33,130 bases of DNA from contig MAGU01000034.1 in the NCBI GenBank assembly GCA_001717025.1, positions 1 to 33,130 of the forward strand, read 5' to 3'. This stretch comes from Candidatus Methanomethylicus oleisabuli (lineage in GTDB: Archaea > Thermoproteota > Methanomethylicia > Methanomethylicales > Methanomethylicaceae). The notes under the pieces were generated by a model. The model ran no database searches, was not told the origin of the DNA, and worked only from the letters and a program-made list of their open reading frames with translations. Shown here in pieces: positions 6,624-26,756 of the stretch (the stretch's first letter is position 1; every line of letters begins with the position of its first letter). The position numbers were made by a program, and so were the translations under genes.

Positions 6624-8084
6624 TCATGGCTTGCCCGGACTGGGTTGCCCCGCTAGGGCTGGCTCGAGCCTTGACCTGTGTATCGAGTTCATGGTGCAGA
6701 ATGGCACAATCTTGCCGTCAGGTAGGGCGTAGTGTATCGTGCACCGCTGTACACGCTGGAGGTCGAAGTTGTAGGGATCCATAAAGTGCATGCAGCCTAC
6801 CAAGATCACCTTCTTCATGAACTCGCCCAGGGACTCGTAGTCGGCATGCACTAGCACGGAGGAGAGCAGGTTGCCGAGAAGGCTCATCTTGACGTGCCTG
6901 GTCGCCCCCAGCAGGCGCATCTTAGCCCTCATGTTGGAGCCCTTCTGGCAGTCTTCATACACCTTGTTCATCGCGTCCATGAACTTCTCAACGTTGGCAT
7001 ACCGGGTTATAGGGACTAGGCGGTCGCCCTCGGGGAGGATGATCGTCGCCATGCCGCATTCCTGGTGGTTCGTGAACTCCTGGTACCTCTTCCCCTTAAG
7101 TGCGCCAACTGCCCTTGAGATGGGGAGGACTACCGGTATTGGGTAGAAGTCGGTCGCCCGCAGCTCGCCTCCGGTCTGCGCCTCTGCGAGCTTTAGCAGG
7201 TCAGGTATAGTTATACGCATCTCCCTCAGCTTCGCCCGGTCTATTCGACCTGCCATGGAGACCGGCTGGAAGTTGACGCCCCTCACGACGTCGCAGTTCT
7301 TGGCGGCGAACCTTATTATGTCCCCCACTTGGTCATCATTTACGCCCTTAACGAGGGTAGGAACGAGCACGAGGCTGTGGATGCCGACCGCCCTACAGTT
7401 CTCGATCGCCTTCTTCTTCGTCTCCAACAGGTCAAGCCCCCTTGCCGCGATGTAAGGGCCGGGCTTCATGCCATCGAACTGCAGATAGAATGTGCTTGCG
7501 CCTGCCTCGTATATCCTCTTCAGGAACTCTAGGTCCTTGGATATCCTGATGCCGTTTGTGTTCACCTCCACGTGATCGAAGCCCTCGTCCTTAGCCATCC
7601 GGATAAGGCCGGGCAGGTCTTCCCTCATCGTCGGCTCCCCGCCTGAGAACTGCAACGCGTTTGGGGGGACGGGTTTGCTGCTTCTCAGGTTCTTCAGCAT
7701 GTCCCTTATCTGTTCCTTGGTAGGTTCGTAGCGATATCCTGCGGTCTCTGCATTGGCGAAGCAGATAGGGCAGCGGAGGTTGCAACTATTGGTGACGTCG
7801 ATGATCGCGAGGACGGTTTGCGATTTGTGGTCGGGGCATATCCCGCAGTCGAACGGGCAGCCATCCTTGACGGCCGTCTGAGGGTTATTCGGCCCCTGAC
7901 CGATGCTTTCATACTTCTCGGCCCTTTTGAAGAGCTCGTAATCGCTCCAGTAAACATCATCATATCTTCCGTGCTTCTCGCACGTCTTTCCCATGTAAAC
8001 CACGCCCCCTTCTTCATAGATCTGCGCGTCGATGACGCTAAGGCACTCGGGGCAGAGGCTCTTTGTCGTCTTGAGGACCTGCAT
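6624..8084 (-). CDS. tes: Radical SAM protein similar to tetraether lipid synthase (Tes / MJ0619-like)
   Basis: CPECLSVIDAQIYEEGGVVYMGKTCEKHG N-terminus, radical SAM motif CNLRCPIC, FSGGEPTMREDL. ATG at 8084. Confidence 0.8.
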   Translation of the reverse strand: MQVLKTTKSLCPECLSVIDAQIYEEGGVVYMGKTCEKHGRYDDVYWSDYELFKRAEKYESIGQGPNNPQTAVKDGCPFDCGICPDHKSQTVLAIIDVTNSCNLRCPICFANAETAGYRYEPTKEQIRDMLKNLRSSKPVPPNALQFSGGEPTMREDLPGLIRMAKDEGFDHVEVNTNGIRISKDLEFLKRIYEAGASTFYLQFDGMKPGPYIAARGLDLLETKKKAIENCRAVGIHSLVLVPTLVKGVNDDQVGDIIRFAAKNCDVVRGVNFQPVSMAGRIDRAKLREMRITIPDLLKLAEAQTGGELRATDFYPIPVVLPISRAVGALKGKRYQEFTNHQECGMATIILPEGDRLVPITRYANVEKFMDAMNKVYEDCQKGSNMRAKMRLLGATRHVKMSLLGNLLSSVLVHADYESLGEFMKKVILVGCMHFMDPYNFDLQRVQRCTIHYALPDGKIVPFCTMNSIHRSRLEPALAGQPSPGKP

Positions 8085-8113
8085 GGTGACCACGAAGAGG
8101 TTAGTGGAACAGC

Positions 8114-16594: not shown

Positions 16595-16725
16595 ATGGTG
16601 CATCCGCCAACCTTTCATCAATGGTTAGAAAATCTATTTAACTTTTTGTTGCGATATGGAAAGGGGACGGGGCGCAATCCATCTTCTGCACATTGGCGCA
16701 CCCCAGAACACAGGAGGTCTTACAA

Positions 16726-17385
16726 TTGGCTGACGACATACTCATCGCGCTTAAGGAAGCGATCATAAACCAGGACTCCGGCGTCGCGGCGGACCTGACC
16801 AAGGCCAGCCTTGCGGAGGGCAGGAGCCCGAACGAGATAATAGAAGCTATATCTGACGGGCTGAAGCAGGTCGGAGACCTGTTCGAAAACCAAGAGATGT
16901 TCCTGCCAGAGGTCCTGCGTGCCGCAAACGCGGCGAAGCGCTCGCTCGAGGCGGTAATACCGCTGGTCAGGAGCAGCGGGGGCAGCTACGGCAGGGGCGG
17001 AGGCAAGGGCACGGTCGCAATTGGGTCGCTCGGTCCGCATGACATAGGGAAGACTATAATAATATCCATGCTCATAGCGGCTGGCTTCGACGTCCTCGAC
17101 TTGGGAATTATGCTGACGCCGGACAAGGTTGAGAGGGCTATGAGGGAGAGCCCCAGCGTGAAGATACTCGCCCTCTCGGCGCTCCTCACATCTGACATCG
17201 GCAAGACTTCCGAGATAATCAAGAGGGTCAGGGGGCTCGGCACTGGGGTCAAGATAATGGTTGGCGGCGCAGCCATGAGCCCTAAGGTCATGAGGGAGGT
17301 TGGCGCGGACGCATACGGCAAGGACGGCGATGAGGCGGTGAAGATTGCCCGCGGGTTTGCTGAGGCGAAAGGTGAAACAAGGTGA
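16726..17385 (+). CDS. Corrinoid (B12-binding) methyltransferase protein, MtbC/MtgC-like
   Basis: Helical cap domain ALKEAIINQDSGVAADLTKASLAEGRSPNEIIEAISDGLKQVGDLFENQEMFLPEVLRAA, then B12 domain GSLGPHDIGKTIIISMLIAAGFDVLDLGIMLTPDKV. SD ggaggt precedes TTG 16726. Confidence 0.88.
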   Translation: MADDILIALKEAIINQDSGVAADLTKASLAEGRSPNEIIEAISDGLKQVGDLFENQEMFLPEVLRAANAAKRSLEAVIPLVRSSGGSYGRGGGKGTVAIGSLGPHDIGKTIIISMLIAAGFDVLDLGIMLTPDKVERAMRESPSVKILALSALLTSDIGKTSEIIKRVRGLGTGVKIMVGGAAMSPKVMREVGADAYGKDGDEAVKIARGFAEAKGETR

Positions 17386-17392
17386 CCTTAAG

Positions 17393-18289
17393 ATGAGGAT
17401 AAAGACGACCGTAATCGGGAGCCACCCCGTCGTCGGTGATGGCGATGAGGCGGTGAAGGCCGCCGTCCTTGACCAGATCGAGGCGGGAATAGACATCATC
17501 AGCGACGGGCAGACCAGAAAGGACATGATCGCCTACTTCGCAGACCACATACCGGGCTTCAAGGTTGAGGACGGCAAGTCGACGATAGTAGGCAAGATTG
17601 CCCCACCCGATGAGACGCCTTTGGTGAGAGACCTGCGCTATGCCAAGAGCCTCGCGGGCGACCGCGCAGATGTGAAGGCAGTAATCACGGGTCCTGTCAC
17701 CATGGTGTTCTTTGCCGAGCTCTCTAACACTGCCCCTTACAAGGGCTTTAGGGACGAGGCGCTCTACAGGGACGTCTCCGAGGCACTCGCCGTCGAGGCC
17801 GAGCTGGTTCAGAGTGGGGGGTTCCGGAACGTCCAGATCGACGAGCCGAGCTACTCCATAGGCGCCCCCATGAACATGGCGAAGATGGCGCTGGAGAAGG
17901 TAGCCTCCGGGGTGAGGGGCACGCGCGCGCTGCACGTCTGCGGGAGCATTAAGCGCTCCTTCGCCGACATTGTGAGGATAGACGGCATCGATGTGCTCTC
18001 ATTCGCGTTCAAGGACAGCGTTAGCAACTTCGACACTGTAGACAGGAAGATGCTTGAGGACTACGGAAAGATGCTGGGCGTCGGTTGCGTGAGCTCGACC
18101 GAGTCGGCAGTGGAGGGCGAGGAGGAGATAAGGGGCACAGTGAGGAGGGCTATCGATGCGTTCGGGCAGGATAACATCGCATGGGTGCATCCGGACTGCG
18201 GGCTGAGGTCGCTTGAGCGAGACTCGGCTAGGGGCAAGCTGAAGGCGATGGTATCCGCCATCAGGGGGATGCAGAAGGAGCTTGCTTGA
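17393..18289 (+). CDS. MetE-core-like (cobalamin-independent methionine synthase C-terminal domain) methyltransferase
   Basis: TTVIGSHP, GIDIISDGQTRKDM, VQIDEPSYS, LHVCG, GVGCVSSTESAVEGEEEI, HPDCGLRSLERDSARGKLKAMV. Confidence 0.85.
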   Translation: MRIKTTVIGSHPVVGDGDEAVKAAVLDQIEAGIDIISDGQTRKDMIAYFADHIPGFKVEDGKSTIVGKIAPPDETPLVRDLRYAKSLAGDRADVKAVITGPVTMVFFAELSNTAPYKGFRDEALYRDVSEALAVEAELVQSGGFRNVQIDEPSYSIGAPMNMAKMALEKVASGVRGTRALHVCGSIKRSFADIVRIDGIDVLSFAFKDSVSNFDTVDRKMLEDYGKMLGVGCVSSTESAVEGEEEIRGTVRRAIDAFGQDNIAWVHPDCGLRSLERDSARGKLKAMVSAIRGMQKELA

Positions 18290-18327
18290 GTGAGTGGTGG
18301 GCAGCTTTTTAGGTCGGCTTCGCGCTT

Positions 18328-19248
18328 GTGACGACACGTCTAAAGGAGTTGGATGCAATGAAGGAGTTGCCCTACACTCTAGGGAGGGTTCAGATCGGCA
18401 GGCAGGGCAAGCCGGTACTGATAGGGAGCCTCTTCTACAAGTCAGACAAGAAGGTCACGAACCACAAGCTTGGGGAGGTCGACTGCCGGAGGCTCTCCAA
18501 GGAGCTCAAGGCAGTGTGCTCGCTAAGCTCGAGGGTAGGACTCGACACGGCTATCGACGTCATCGCTGAGACACCCAAGGCGATGGAGAACTATCTGGAG
18601 CTGCTCGCCGGCATGGTCGATGTGCCGCTGCTGATAGGCGGACTCAACGAGGAGTCTCGGGTGGCGGGTTATGCGAAGGCGAGGAGGCTCGGGATATCCG
18701 ACAGGTGCGGCGTAAACTCGATCTCGACCATGACGTCGGACGCGGAGCTGGCATCAATCAAGGAGGCGGGCATCAGCTTCGGCGTGCTGCAGACGCTCGA
18801 CCCCTCGGCGGTCTACCCTGAGGACAAGCTCAGGCTTCTCGAGGAGAGCATCCTCGTCAAGTGCAAAGCGGCAGGGATCGATGCCGCGGTCGTCGACGTA
18901 GGGATAATAGACTTCACGAGCGTGCACCTTGCAGTGGAGGCGATAAAGCTAATAAAGTCAAGGCTCGGGCTACCGGCGGGCTGCGCCCCATCGAATGCGG
19001 CTTATCAGCCGCTTGTAAGCAGAAAGATGACCAAGAGGGGCGCGAGGTCGGTCAACGTTGCACTCAACACGATGCTCCAGATGGGGGGCGCTGATGCCAT
19101 CTTCTACGGCCCGCTGAAGGCCTCGGCATACCTCTTCGAGGCGGCAGCGGTTGTCGAGGGCATAAAGGCGTATGGGCAGAGGCTCGCAGGAGACAAGGGG
19201 ATAGACAGGAGCGGCCCACTCTTCAGATTCCTGCCAAAGCTGCAGTAG
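18328..19248 (+). CDS. MtrH-like tetrahydromethanopterin/tetrahydrofolate:corrinoid methyltransferase
   Basis: GRVQIGRQGKPVLIGSLFYKSDKKVTNHKLGEVD, SDRCGVNSISTMTSDAELASIKEAG, ACAPSNAAYQ-like segment GLPAGCAPSNAAYQPL. GTG start. Confidence 0.85.
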   Translation: MTTRLKELDAMKELPYTLGRVQIGRQGKPVLIGSLFYKSDKKVTNHKLGEVDCRRLSKELKAVCSLSSRVGLDTAIDVIAETPKAMENYLELLAGMVDVPLLIGGLNEESRVAGYAKARRLGISDRCGVNSISTMTSDAELASIKEAGISFGVLQTLDPSAVYPEDKLRLLEESILVKCKAAGIDAAVVDVGIIDFTSVHLAVEAIKLIKSRLGLPAGCAPSNAAYQPLVSRKMTKRGARSVNVALNTMLQMGGADAIFYGPLKASAYLFEAAAVVEGIKAYGQRLAGDKGIDRSGPLFRFLPKLQ

Positions 19249-19309: not shown

Positions 19310-19540
19310 ATGCCGCTTTCCTGCATAATGATCCACTGCAAGCCGGGCACGCATGGAGAGGTCGTCAAGGAGGTCAGCAAGATGAATGGCGTCAAGAGGG
19401 CTTTTGAAGTGCTTGGTGCCTTTGACGTGGTCGTGGAGTACGAGTTCTCCAGCCTAGAGAAGCTCGGCATGGCGGTCTACGAAATAGCGAAGCTACCGGG
19501 CGTGATCTCCTCAGAGACGCTGATAGAGACGATACTGTGA
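19310..19540 (+). CDS. Stand-alone Lrp/AsnC ligand-binding (RAM) domain protein
   Basis: IMIHCKPGTHGEVVKEVSKMNGVKRAFEVLGAFDVVVEYEFSSLEKLGMAVYEIAKLPGVISSETLIETIL; no HTH. Confidence 0.85.
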   Translation: MPLSCIMIHCKPGTHGEVVKEVSKMNGVKRAFEVLGAFDVVVEYEFSSLEKLGMAVYEIAKLPGVISSETLIETIL

Positions 19541-19552
19541 GGTTTGTTGAAG

Positions 19553-19777
19553 ATGGTCCAGATTTGCATGCTCATAAATGCCGAGAAGATATCTGTATTC
19601 GAGGTCGTTAAGCAGCTCGAGAAGTTGCCAGAGATCGCAGACGCATTCCCTACGTTCGGCAGGTACGATGTCGTAGCCTTTGCCAACATCGAGAGGAGGG
19701 AGGATGCCGGCGCTCTGGCAAAGAAGGTTAGCGCACTCCAGGGCGTCCTAAGGACAGAGTCGATGGTTGAGGTATGA
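19553..19777 (+). CDS. Second stand-alone RAM-domain protein
   Basis: CMLINAEKISVFEVVKQLEKLPEIADAFPTFGRYDVVAFANIERREDAGALAKKVSALQGVLRTESMVEV; TTG starts at 19544/19547 also possible. Confidence 0.82.
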   Translation: MVQICMLINAEKISVFEVVKQLEKLPEIADAFPTFGRYDVVAFANIERREDAGALAKKVSALQGVLRTESMVEV

Positions 19778-19791
19778 GGCGGAAAGGGACT

Positions 19792-19824
<33 letters not shown>

Positions 19825-20093
19825 AGGAGGGTAAAAAAGGCCACCCCGGAACGCGCCGGACCGAACCTCGCCCATCTTCGCATCGCCCTTCCAATCGCCT
19901 CTGGTACCATGACCGAAGGTTGATGCCCCACCCATTCTTCAGACCATTTCCCACGGGCTTCCCCTTATCCCCTGCCGAGGCATGTTATGAAAGGCAGTTG
20001 GGTTGTGCCATAGATGATGAAGAAGTACGCCCTTACGCATTACCCGAAAATTTTTAAAAGAAGCGCCGTGCAAAGACTGATGGTTCGTTGCAA

Positions 20094-23885: not shown

Positions 23886-25376
23886 ATGGACATGAAAAAG
23901 ATCTTCGCCGCGGCACTAATCGTGCTTACTTTATCGGCAGCTGCTGCTTCAGGGATTGGGATCCTTGCTGTGAGCAATGACGCGGGCAAGGCGGATTATA
24001 TGGTTCAGAGTGCAGCCTTAGCGATGACTGAGGCCGATGCGGCGATCGCCCGGCTCAGGGAGGCGAATATCACGCTCCCCGAAGGCCTGAATTTTACGTA
24101 TGAGCAGGCGCTCAATATGTCGGATCTGGCGGTCCGGTATAAGAACCAGGAGAACTACCAGCTGTGCTGCGAATATGCGATGCAGTCGCAGCACATGTTC
24201 ATGGAGATAGTCAATTATTCAGCCCAGATTGGCGGTGGAGGCGGCACGCAGAACATACAGAGGGCAATGGAGGCGCTGATGCTCAGGTCTGAGGTCGGGC
24301 GCGCCTACCTACTCATCGCCACAATGGGCAACGCGAGCATAAAGGCAGCGATCTATGGGATCAACACGTCTGGCGTCAACGGGTGCCTCGAGATGGCCAG
24401 GCTGAAGCTTGGCAATGCCTCCCTTGCGCTGGACAACGGCGACCTGGCAGGCGCTAACCAGACGGTAGCCGAGGCGAATTCGCTGATCCAAACGGCAAGT
24501 CAAGCGTTTGGAGCGGTCGCTTCAGAGTCCGATGCACTCAGGGCGCGCCAGTATCTGATGAATGCCCTCGGCGCCGTCAACATGTATATGGAGAGGGTGA
24601 TGGCGTGGGCGGGCTTGCCGGAAGGGGACAGAACGCAGTCGATGGAGATGCTCAACTATGCAGTGTGCCAGCTGCAGCTCGCAAATGCGAGCCTCGATCA
24701 GGGCAACCTCACGCTCGCGCTGCAGCAGCTCGAACAGTTCAGGCTCAGGGCTGGCGAGGCATGCGGAGTGATGGCTGGAGGGGACTCGCTGCGCGCGGAG
24801 CTGGAGCTCGGCGTGATGAGCCTCCAACTTCAGGCGGAGGGCTTGAACAGGAGGATCCAGGCGATGAAAGGCCAGGGCTACAACGTGTCGGCGCAGGAGC
24901 AGGCGATGGAGCAGGTGTGCCAAGAGCTCCAAGGGATAGAATTTGCCAATGCCAGCGCCGGCGAGCTGCAGCTCGCCCAGATCCGTGCGCACATCTGCGC
25001 GATGGACGGCGAGATAGCGGGCATGGAGGAGCAGCACAGGAGCCAGGAGCAGGCGAGGGTGATGGCGGGCATACTGGAGATGCAGGGCAGGGTCGCCGGG
25101 CTTGGGGAAAGGGCAATGCAGATGAAAGGCAACGGCTCGGACACGGGTAATGTAGAGGGCATGCTCAATCAGGCAAACGGCATGCTGGCTGAGGCCAACC
25201 AGCAGCTCCAGAATGGGAACGTGTCGGGGGCCGACGCCCTCCTGAACCAAGCGGGGCAGATGGCGGATCAGGCTGAGGGCGAGATGAACCAGATGGGCGG
25301 AGGAGGCCAAGGCCAAGGGCAGGGTCAGGATCAGGGGAGCTTAGGAGGAAAACCGCAAGGCAACGGGGCGAACTGA
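23886..25376 (+). CDS. Secreted Ala/Gln/Met-rich helical-repeat protein
   Basis: Signal peptide MDMKKIFAAALIVLTLSAAAASGIGILA; repeated helical pattern e.g. KLGNASLALDNGDLAGANQTVAEANSL, LQLANASLDQGNLTLALQQLEQF, GMLAEANQQLQNGNVSGADALLNQAGQM; Gly/Gln-rich tail. Confidence 0.75.
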   Translation: MDMKKIFAAALIVLTLSAAAASGIGILAVSNDAGKADYMVQSAALAMTEADAAIARLREANITLPEGLNFTYEQALNMSDLAVRYKNQENYQLCCEYAMQSQHMFMEIVNYSAQIGGGGGTQNIQRAMEALMLRSEVGRAYLLIATMGNASIKAAIYGINTSGVNGCLEMARLKLGNASLALDNGDLAGANQTVAEANSLIQTASQAFGAVASESDALRARQYLMNALGAVNMYMERVMAWAGLPEGDRTQSMEMLNYAVCQLQLANASLDQGNLTLALQQLEQFRLRAGEACGVMAGGDSLRAELELGVMSLQLQAEGLNRRIQAMKGQGYNVSAQEQAMEQVCQELQGIEFANASAGELQLAQIRAHICAMDGEIAGMEEQHRSQEQARVMAGILEMQGRVAGLGERAMQMKGNGSDTGNVEGMLNQANGMLAEANQQLQNGNVSGADALLNQAGQMADQAEGEMNQMGGGGQGQGQGQDQGSLGGKPQGNGAN

Positions 25377-25397: not shown

Positions 25398-26756
25398 ATG
25401 GAGATGCATAGCATGGACACCAGCGGACTTGGCGGCGGGTGCTTCGGGGAGGCGGCGAGGGTGAGGGTAGCCGTTGCATTAGCGGCGGTGCTACTCGCAG
25501 CCATCTCTGGAGGCGGCGTATCTGCGGCCACCCAGCCATACACCATACAGGCGGCAATCATTATGGTCTATGAGGACGGCGCGGTCACCGCAGACTTCCA
25601 CATCACAGTAGATCCGATCAGCCCGACCGCCAACTTCAGCCTGCCCGGCACAACCTATCTTGACGTTACGGCAATCGGGGGCTCCGGCCTGCCCCTCGGG
25701 TACCAGAACTATCCGGGGATGGTCGCAGTCAACACGCTCGGCGAGTCGTCGGTGTGGCTGGGGTACACGACCCATGACCTGACATCGAAAACCGGCAGCT
25801 ACTGGAGCCTTAACTTCACATCCCCCTCGGCGGTGAGGATATCGTTCCCATACGGCGCATCGGTCATCAGCGTCAACAGGGTACCGGACGCGATCGAAAG
25901 CACGGGGGGAAGTGCTGTAATCCTGATGCCGGAGGGAGAGGTGTCAGTGTCATATATCCTGCGCGTCGTGGGGACTGCGGACTATGCGATCGTAGCCATC
26001 GCCGACGCAGAGGTGACCATAGCGAGCCTCAACGCGTCGGGCATCGCCACTCCGGCTGCGGCCGCGCTGCTGGGCCAGGCGGAGGCGGCATTCGATCTGG
26101 GGAACTATGCCAGCGCGGAGGAGCTCGCGGAGCAGGCTAAGAGCTCGGCGGTCGAGGCGAATGCAACCGCCTACCAGGCGAGCGTGAGGCTGGCGGAGGC
26201 GGACGACGCCATATCGGAAGCGGAGGCAGAGGGGAGGGCTGGCGGGCTGGATGCGGCGAGGTCGCTACTATCTGAGGCGGAGCACGCTTACGCCTCCGGC
26301 GACTATGCATCGGCGCTCAGCCTGGCGTCCCAAGCGAAGGAGGCTGCCGAGGCGGCGTCGGGCGTGGGCGGGTCGATCCTCCCCTACGCAGCGATCGGCG
26401 CAATTGCCGCGGCCGGCGCAGGCGGCGTTATTGCGCTGACCAAGAGGAAGAGGGGCGGGGGCACGAATGCGGCCAAGCCATACGCAAGGGAGAGGCGCGA
26501 GGTGGATGTCGAGAAGATCGCGTCTGAGGACAGGCTCAGGGACGAGGACATCGATGTCGTGAGGGCCCTCGCCGAGAGCGGAGGGGAAGCCCTTGAGTCT
26601 GAGGTCAGGGGCAGGCTCAACCTCCCAAAGACGACGCTGTGGCGCGCGGCCAAGCGGCTGGAGAGAGAAGGCTACATCAAGATCGAGACGGTGGCAGGCC
26701 AGAACAGGCTGAGCGTGAGGAGGGAGTACTGCAAAGGCAGCGCGGGGCAGGCATGA
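25398..26756 (+). CDS. Membrane-anchored winged-HTH protein with extracytoplasmic sensor-like domain
   Basis: N-terminal signal segment, long extracytoplasmic region, TM ILPYAAIGAIAAAGAGGVIAL followed by KRKRGGG, C-terminal wHTH VVRALAESGGEALESEVRGRLNLPKTTLWRAAKRLEREGYIKIE. Confidence 0.82.
   Translation: MEMHSMDTSGLGGGCFGEAARVRVAVALAAVLLAAISGGGVSAATQPYTIQAAIIMVYEDGAVTADFHITVDPISPTANFSLPGTTYLDVTAIGGSGLPLGYQNYPGMVAVNTLGESSVWLGYTTHDLTSKTGSYWSLNFTSPSAVRISFPYGASVISVNRVPDAIESTGGSAVILMPEGEVSVSYILRVVGTADYAIVAIADAEVTIASLNASGIATPAAAALLGQAEAAFDLGNYASAEELAEQAKSSAVEANATAYQASVRLAEADDAISEAEAEGRAGGLDAARSLLSEAEHAYASGDYASALSLASQAKEAAEAASGVGGSILPYAAIGAIAAAGAGGVIALTKRKRGGGTNAAKPYARERREVDVEKIASEDRLRDEDIDVVRALAESGGEALESEVRGRLNLPKTTLWRAAKRLEREGYIKIETVAGQNRLSVRREYCKGSAGQA

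Follow-up and report, generated by a model that had tools for sequence, protein, structure and literature searches.

In the B12-dependent methionine synthase of Phaeobacter inhibens, which is genetically proven, three separate proteins (PGA1_c13370, MtbC, and PGA1_c16040) do the work and a protein with a RACo domain (DUF4445) acts as reactivator (PMC5764234). A split three-part methionine synthase, MtgCDE, is also in use in Ruegeria (PMC12478193). The core MetE proteins MesA, MesB, and MesC consist of a single MetE catalytic domain with a presumed methyl-corrinoid donor, predicted to be MtrA or CoFeSP, with CoFeSP assigned to the organisms that have MesB (Price 2021). Core MetE uses free methylcobalamin poorly in vitro, and the real archaeal donor is an open question. 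In one sentence, Loh et al. (2021) placed the corrinoid protein-mtrH pair of Candidatus Methanomethylicus mesodigestum next to a metE homologue, and the passage concerned treats an anabolic role as possible (PMC7886697). Here we describe such a locus in a 33,130-nucleotide stretch of DNA (contig MAGU01000034.1, hereafter the window) from Candidatus Methanomethylicus oleisabuli. Its three genes encode a small corrinoid protein (COR), a core MetE-like protein (MET), and an MtrH-like protein. We read this trio as a split corrinoid-dependent methionine synthase that would pass a methyl group from a methyl-pterin through the corrinoid protein to homocysteine, and we put the probability of this reading at roughly 0.72.

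The three genes are consecutive open reading frames on the + strand (Table 1). The preliminary description had recognized them as a B12 carrier, a MetE core, and an MtrH-like protein, and both the assignments and the coordinates hold, the latter to within the choice of start codon. Only 8 bp separate the COR stop codon from the MET start, and 38 to 68 bp separate MET from the MtrH-like gene; this tight spacing suggests that all three are carried on one transcript. COR has a B12-binding domain (PF02310, E 1.1e-16) and a B12-binding_2 cap domain (PF02607, E 1.4e-15), based on Pfam. It scored 118.9 bits against the methylamine-type corrinoid protein family TIGR02370, under the cut-off of 215.3. 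Its nearest PDB entries are 1y80, 3ezx, and 7xcn, plus MetH, and the best match of its AlphaFold2 model is MttC (7xcn). MET matched only Meth_synt_2, the MetE catalytic domain (PF01717, E 5.3e-35), and Pfam and NCBIfam profile searches found no folate-binding N-terminal half of MetE in it. The AlphaFold2 model of MET (pLDDT 90.9) has its best PDB match by Foldseek in Thermotoga maritima MetE (E 1.8e-21, TMq 0.84), with the coenzyme M (CoM) methyltransferase MtaA (4ay7) far behind at E 3.6e-9; the predicted fold is confidently MetE-like and much nearer MetE than MtaA. The third protein matched PF02007 (E 3.3e-34), its closest solved relative is MtgA (6sj8/6sjo, E ~2e-35), and its neighbors in the window are no Mtr subunits. 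As noted earlier, no MttB, MtaB, or MtbB gene lies beside the trio in the window, based on open reading frames and Pfam annotation.

The gene content of the host genome points to the same function. The host genome, in which the window is contig C26, measures 1.37 Mb, is 95% complete, and encodes mcrA; given its named relatives, Candidatus Methanomethylicus and Methanosuratincola (Methanomethylicota, formerly Verstraetearchaeota), the host is a methanogen of Methanomethylicales. Methanomassiliicoccales, to which mcrA and the scarcity of Mtr genes had pointed, was rejected on the strength of these relatives. Statements on genome content in this order rest on protein-family searches, with 23 genomes as the sample. 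The host encodes exactly one PF01717 protein (MetE-like) and one PF02007 protein (MtrH-like), and 22 of the 23 genomes have a MetE match. The homocysteine domain of MetH and BHMT (PF02574) was not found in the host genome, nor above cut-off in any of the 23. CoFeSP (PF03599) was likewise missing from the host and had no match in 22 of the 23, which rules it out as the MET donor in this order; the sole match is a 33-bit partial hit in an incomplete genome. A MetH hidden among the B12-binding proteins of the host was considered and rejected, as the other seven matches are corrinoid proteins paired with URO-D genes, two divergent small proteins, and two radical SAM proteins. Since the genome has a single MetE-like gene and neither a MetH/BHMT module nor CoFeSP, the trio is its only recognizable methionine synthase, which answers the preliminary description's call to look for a separate one.

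The host also encodes MetF beside a MetV-type gene, which would supply methyl-pterin, and MTHFR is present in 19 of the 23 genomes. The corrinoid reactivator RACo is found in all 23 and is present, unlinked to the trio, in the host. In addition, the window carries a zinc-ribbon radical SAM gene of the HMPTM type. We take this family to methylate the pterin ring of methanopterin, so the methyl carrier may be a cofactor of the tetrahydromethanopterin (H4MPT) type.

Genomes outside the order supply stronger evidence. In a sample of 398 Thermoproteota genomes, 128 have an MtrH homologue and 244 a MetE homologue, and we read the neighborhoods where the two lay close. MtrH, a corrinoid protein, and MetE lie within ~5 kb in six genomes of one family, f11 (G061, G163, G352, G024, G221, and G157; G, L, and f numbers are our handles for genomes, loci, and families). 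RACo was confirmed by Pfam in the G061 cluster, and most of the other five have an equally long gene in that place. G380 likewise has its cluster within ~5 kb, in the order MET-COR-RACo-MTHFR-MtrH, and in G368 MET lies next to MtrH. G145 encodes a 546-aa protein in which MtrH is fused to B12 cap and B12-binding domains (L125:5545-7185, - strand); it resembles the pterin and cobalamin half of MetH, yet is made of unrelated parts. Because order and orientation vary between these distant clusters, the association is more than inherited gene order. By a rough estimate, about one co-location of MtrH and MetE would be expected by chance among the ~105 other genomes with MtrH, against at least eight seen, six of them from a single family.

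These clusters also bear on function. G163 is Staphylothermus marinus, a heterotroph that makes no methane, and its cluster therefore cannot serve methanogenesis. A methionine-making role fits the clusters of methanogens and non-methanogens alike, whereas a methanogenic role does not, and the combination of RACo, MTHFR, and the fusion protein in non-methanogens favors an anabolic methionine synthase over methylotrophy. The route given in the preliminary description, from CH3-pterin to the corrinoid protein, the MetE-like protein, and homocysteine, gains support from these clusters with RACo and once MTHFR, from MetF/MetV, and from the lack of CoFeSP. In a MetE tree, the proteins of the window's order and those of the f11-type clusters form separate clades with full support (100/100). 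Hence the module either came together on two occasions or is ancient and has diverged widely.

A third arrangement occurs in f14 and f25 genomes, where core MetE lies with a corrinoid protein, MtaB, a RACo-like protein, and a thymidylate-synthase-like protein; core MetE can thus be combined with other methyl sources. The loci concerned are L151:4571-11851 (G042), L150:1-4221 (G063), and L152:2552-8343 (G049), with the MtaB homologue matching PF12176 (E 1e-157), though not every gene was seen in each locus. They may serve to make methionine with methyl groups from methanol, or may form a methanol methyltransferase system that is new. A further candidate, the MetE of L121 (G103), was rejected as a cluster, as it has neither corrinoid nor RACo neighbors and the adjacent 543-aa protein is a GHMP kinase.

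Within Methanomethylicales, the trio is preserved in both arrangement and sequence. MET and the MtrH-like gene are adjacent on the same strand in 21/21 loci of family f1, and COR is directly upstream of MET in 20, the remaining locus stopping at a contig end. Identity of the trio proteins across these loci is 55 to 70% (MetE 55 to 70%). Codon third positions differ at 58 to 72%, compared with 16 to 29% at positions 1 and 2, and this excess indicates that all three genes are under purifying selection and are not chance reading frames.

Most residues with an assigned role in the characterized relatives are kept. Counts cover 21 MET, 20 COR, and 20 MtrH sequences of family f1, with the distant loci compared alongside. 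In MET, the positions that bind homocysteine in MetE are Ser, Gln, and Asp throughout, and Gln at the position of MetE E484 is the state of MesA and MesC (PMC7857596). From these residues and the fold, we infer that homocysteine is the acceptor. Three zinc ligands of MetE, a His and a Cys close together and a later Cys, are also retained. COR keeps both the cobalt-ligand His and the relay Ser. In the MtrH-like protein, five of six pterin residues are conserved (S34, D77, N129, D189, and N222, corresponding to MtgA S32, D75, N129, D194, and N227).

Table 1. Positions of the trio, its key residues, and other features in the window
Feature	Position	Strand	Remarks
Corrinoid (B12-binding) methyl-carrier protein (COR), MttC/MtbC/MetH-cap-like	16693 (TTG) or 16726 (TTG)..17385	+	230/219 aa
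Core MetE-like homocysteine methyltransferase (MET), MesA-like	17393 (ATG)..18289	+	298 aa; PF01717
MtrH-family methyl-pterin:corrinoid methyltransferase	18328 (GTG) or 18358 (ATG)..19248	+	306/296 aa; PF02007
COR cobalt-ligand motif GPHDIGK	17032..17052	+	His116 kept; Asp of DxHxxG replaced by Gly, 2-residue deletion; 20/20 in family
MET homocysteine-binding Ser10 (E. coli MetE S433)	17420..17422	+	invariant, 21/21
MET homocysteine-binding Gln40 (E484)	17510..17512	+	invariant, 21/21
MET homocysteine-binding Asp150 (D599)	17840..17842	+	invariant, 21/21
MET Zn ligands His181, Cys183 (H641, C643)	17933..17941	+	invariant in family; 33/33 aligned sequences
MET Ala205 at fourth MetE Zn ligand position (E665)	18005..18007	+	Ala/Ser in 21/21 family sequences
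MET Zn ligand Cys269 (C726)	18197..18199	+	invariant in family
MtrH Gly104 at MtgA catalytic Asp102 position	18637..18639	+	Gly in 20/20 family sequences
HMPTM-type (zinc-ribbon) radical SAM gene	6624..8093	-	
Open reading frame antisense to COR gene	16720..17526	-	treated as coding-strand shadow
Open reading frame beside trio	19477..19935	-	no Pfam family
Adjoining open reading frame	23886..25376	+	496 aa; no confident Pfam/NCBIfam family
Adjoining open reading frame	25398..26756	+	452 aa; no confident Pfam/NCBIfam family

Several observations weigh against a methionine synthase. The genes flanking the trio (serB, ACT, thioredoxin, TatD, aminotransferase, and others) are as conserved as the trio itself. 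With the whole neighborhood conserved, synteny inside the order does not by itself prove joint function, and we dropped it as strong proof; the gene-order conservation that the preliminary description proposed to check is there, but it means less than it seems. Neither RACo nor MetF is linked to the trio in Methanomethylicales. One genus member, G005, has an MtrH match and no MetE match, and in G001, from a second family, MtrH and a different MetE are on separate contigs. MET falls just under the methionine synthase cut-off of NF002119/PRK00957 (245.1 bits against 258; L031 reaches 256.4), and its likeness to MesA was judged by this profile together with published residues. The cultured relative M. 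petrocarbonis requires yeast extract and so may not be prototrophic for methionine (PMC12244365).

Each of the three proteins has also lost a catalytic residue. The zinc-ligand Glu of MET is gone in all 21 family sequences, which show His, Cys, Ala/Ser, Cys in place of the His, Cys, Glu, Cys of MesA; 11 of the 12 MetE proteins compared from distant loci retain the Glu. Thiol alkyltransferases generally offer a precedent, with zinc held by three protein ligands and the substrate thiolate as the fourth, and by analogy a three-ligand zinc of this kind is plausible in MET. Every family COR has Gly in place of the DxHxxG Asp, while all 11 corrinoid proteins of the distant clusters retain the Asp. 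The equivalent of MtgA D102 is Gly throughout the family MtrH proteins, a state shared by 6 of 45 other aligned MtrH sequences. The S. marinus set, which includes a RACo-like protein, has the classical residues. In MtgA, D102A abolishes methyl transfer from methylcobalamin to tetrahydrofolate, and D102 is assigned to activating the pterin for methyl attack (PMC7154762). Its loss would be expected to harm the corrinoid-to-pterin direction most, and we infer that it fits a flow from pterin to corrinoid.

The observed gene content, gene order, fold families, and binding residues suggest the following scheme, in which the catalytic steps, the choice of pterin, the contacts between proteins, and the direction of methyl flow are proposed. 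MetF/MetV, encoded elsewhere in the genome, would produce the methyl-pterin. The MtrH-like protein would charge Co(I) of the small corrinoid protein with the methyl group of methyl-tetrahydromethanopterin or methyl-tetrahydrofolate. Homocysteine, held as a zinc thiolate by the core MetE-like protein, would then receive the methyl group from the methyl-Co(III) corrinoid protein and become methionine. Corrinoid that slipped to Co(II) would be re-reduced by the unlinked RACo-type ATPase.

The trio might instead be catabolic, with COR and the MtrH-like protein feeding methyl groups from some methylated compound to the pterin pool or to methanogenesis, and the MetE-like protein being the substrate methyltransferase or an unrelated neighbor. 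There is precedent for this: L126, elsewhere in the phylum, has MtrH and a corrinoid protein beside MTTB, and G005 has a cluster of MttB and a corrinoid protein. The first published readings of the Methanomethylicus corrinoid protein-mtrH pair were methylotrophic, as in earlier work on Bathyarchaeota and Verstraetearchaeota, according to the passage in PMC7886697. Nevertheless, we consider a catabolic role unlikely. Besides the lack of substrate methyltransferase genes at the locus, the MTTB family is absent from 21 of the 23 genomes of the order, and no MttB was found in the host genome, an outcome in favor of the preliminary description. Related clusters are also found in organisms that make no methane, one of them with MTHFR, the homocysteine residues of MET are invariant, and the Asp missing from MtrH is the one by which MtgA activates the pterin to be methylated. 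A catabolic trio would also leave the organism without any methionine synthase.

Less likely still is a methyl-pterin:thiol methyltransferase acting on another thiol, most likely CoM, as a soluble stand-in for a lost Mtr complex. That complex is lacking in most of the order, and the reduced zinc site of MET, His-X-Cys...Cys, is a pattern known from MtaA-type CoM methyltransferases. This role is at odds with a fold far nearer MetE than MtaA, with the separate URO-D/MtaA-type genes that are paired with corrinoid proteins in the same genome, and with the cluster relatives in non-methanogens. Also against it, G016, the only genome of the order in which MtrA was seen (no systematic MtrA search was made in the order or the host genome), carries the trio plus an MtrA-MtrH pair. 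Finally, it is very improbable that MET makes methionine with methyl groups from a different methyl-corrinoid protein, such as MtaC, and that the COR-MtrH pair is a bystander, for although the entire neighborhood is conserved and the f14/f25 core MetE genes lie beside a corrinoid protein and MtaB rather than MtrH, the COR-MET spacing in the window is near zero, and MtrH, corrinoid protein, and MetE recur together in unrelated families in different orders and once as an MtrH-corrinoid protein fusion.

Other corrinoid-related genes were seen in the same genomes. In the host, three corrinoid proteins (L003, L004, and L005, on contigs C83, C8, and C68) are each paired with a URO-D/MtaA-type gene, Pfam-confirmed for L003 and L005, and no substrate methyltransferase lies beside them in the short stretches read. 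Two small B12-binding proteins (L010:1465-2097, - strand; L009:657-1280, + strand) have an altered cobalt-ligand motif (GENHVLM and GEGHVLM); by eye, one is beside an arsenite-methyltransferase-like gene and a permease, and the other beside an Frh/Fd-like oxidoreductase. The G005 cluster (L155:2979-8795) combines genes for a corrinoid protein, a cpn60-type chaperonin, MttB, and a RACo-like protein. The mtrA-mtrH pair of G016 is at L059:683-2382, with no other Mtr subunits in the stretch read.

In the window itself, SerB and ACT-domain genes lie divergently to the left of the trio. The short reading frame to its right (Table 1) has counterparts with 43 to 59% identity beside the trio in most relatives. 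An Rfam scan of the window for regulatory RNA gave no match.

If the trio is a methionine synthase, it names a dedicated donor and its charging enzyme for core MetE in organisms without CoFeSP, and three small soluble proteins make the donor question testable. The isolated mtrH genes of many archaea would gain an anabolic role in place of a methylotrophic one, a point of some consequence, since they have served as an argument for methane metabolism. With their three fixed residue changes, the proteins would also probe the need for the classical Asp-His-Ser relay and for four-ligand zinc.

The trio is not wholly new, given the proven three-part synthase of Phaeobacter and the co-localization of corrinoid protein, mtrH, and metE printed in 2021. 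Its novelty appears to lie in the set of components (MtrH, an MttC-like carrier, and core MetE), in the repeated occurrence of this set with two MetE subfamilies, and in the three fixed active-site losses in the order. We found no earlier characterization of an MtrH, corrinoid protein, and MetE system in the literature, of which our coverage is incomplete. Tentatively, and at somewhat less than even odds, we propose that this is an uncharacterized archaeal split methionine synthase, found repeatedly among Thermoproteota with either of two MetE subfamilies, whose catalytic chemistry is altered in Methanomethylicales (no zinc-ligand glutamate, no cobalt-relay aspartate, and no MtgA-type aspartate), losses that may restrict transfer to the direction from pterin to homocysteine.

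The pairs of Bathyarchaeia and Candidatus Methanomethylicus mesodigestum described by Loh et al. (2021) are apparently the same locus, and the passage on them does not analyze their function, residues, or distribution, or any parallel clusters. From MtgA and MtrH, which belong to the same family, the MtrH-like protein differs in the Gly at Asp102 and apparently in having neither an MtrA-G complex, to judge by its neighbors in the window, nor an MtgB partner. MET resembles MesA, MesB, and MesC in domain content, and MesA and MesC in its Ser, Gln, and Asp. However, its proposed donor is the adjacent MttC-like corrinoid protein, and it has lost the zinc-ligand Glu that MesA and MesB conserve strongly, apart from some MesB proteins with Asp. 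As in Phaeobacter and Ruegeria, the pterin, cobalamin, and homocysteine functions would lie on three polypeptides, with a small MtbC-like corrinoid protein and a RACo/DUF4445-type reactivator. In those bacteria all three genes are needed for methionine, whereas the trio is known from sequence; their modules are the MetH parts PF00809 (pterin) and PF02574 (homocysteine) in place of MtrH (PF02007) and core MetE (PF01717), and only here are all three genes adjacent. By family, the trio would be the three-component alternative to MetH envisaged in the preliminary description, built from families other than those of Phaeobacter. Compared with MetH itself, the proposed overall reaction and the corrinoid domain type (PF02607 plus PF02310) are the same, while the homocysteine and pterin modules are different ones, on separate polypeptides and with no AdoMet reactivation domain.

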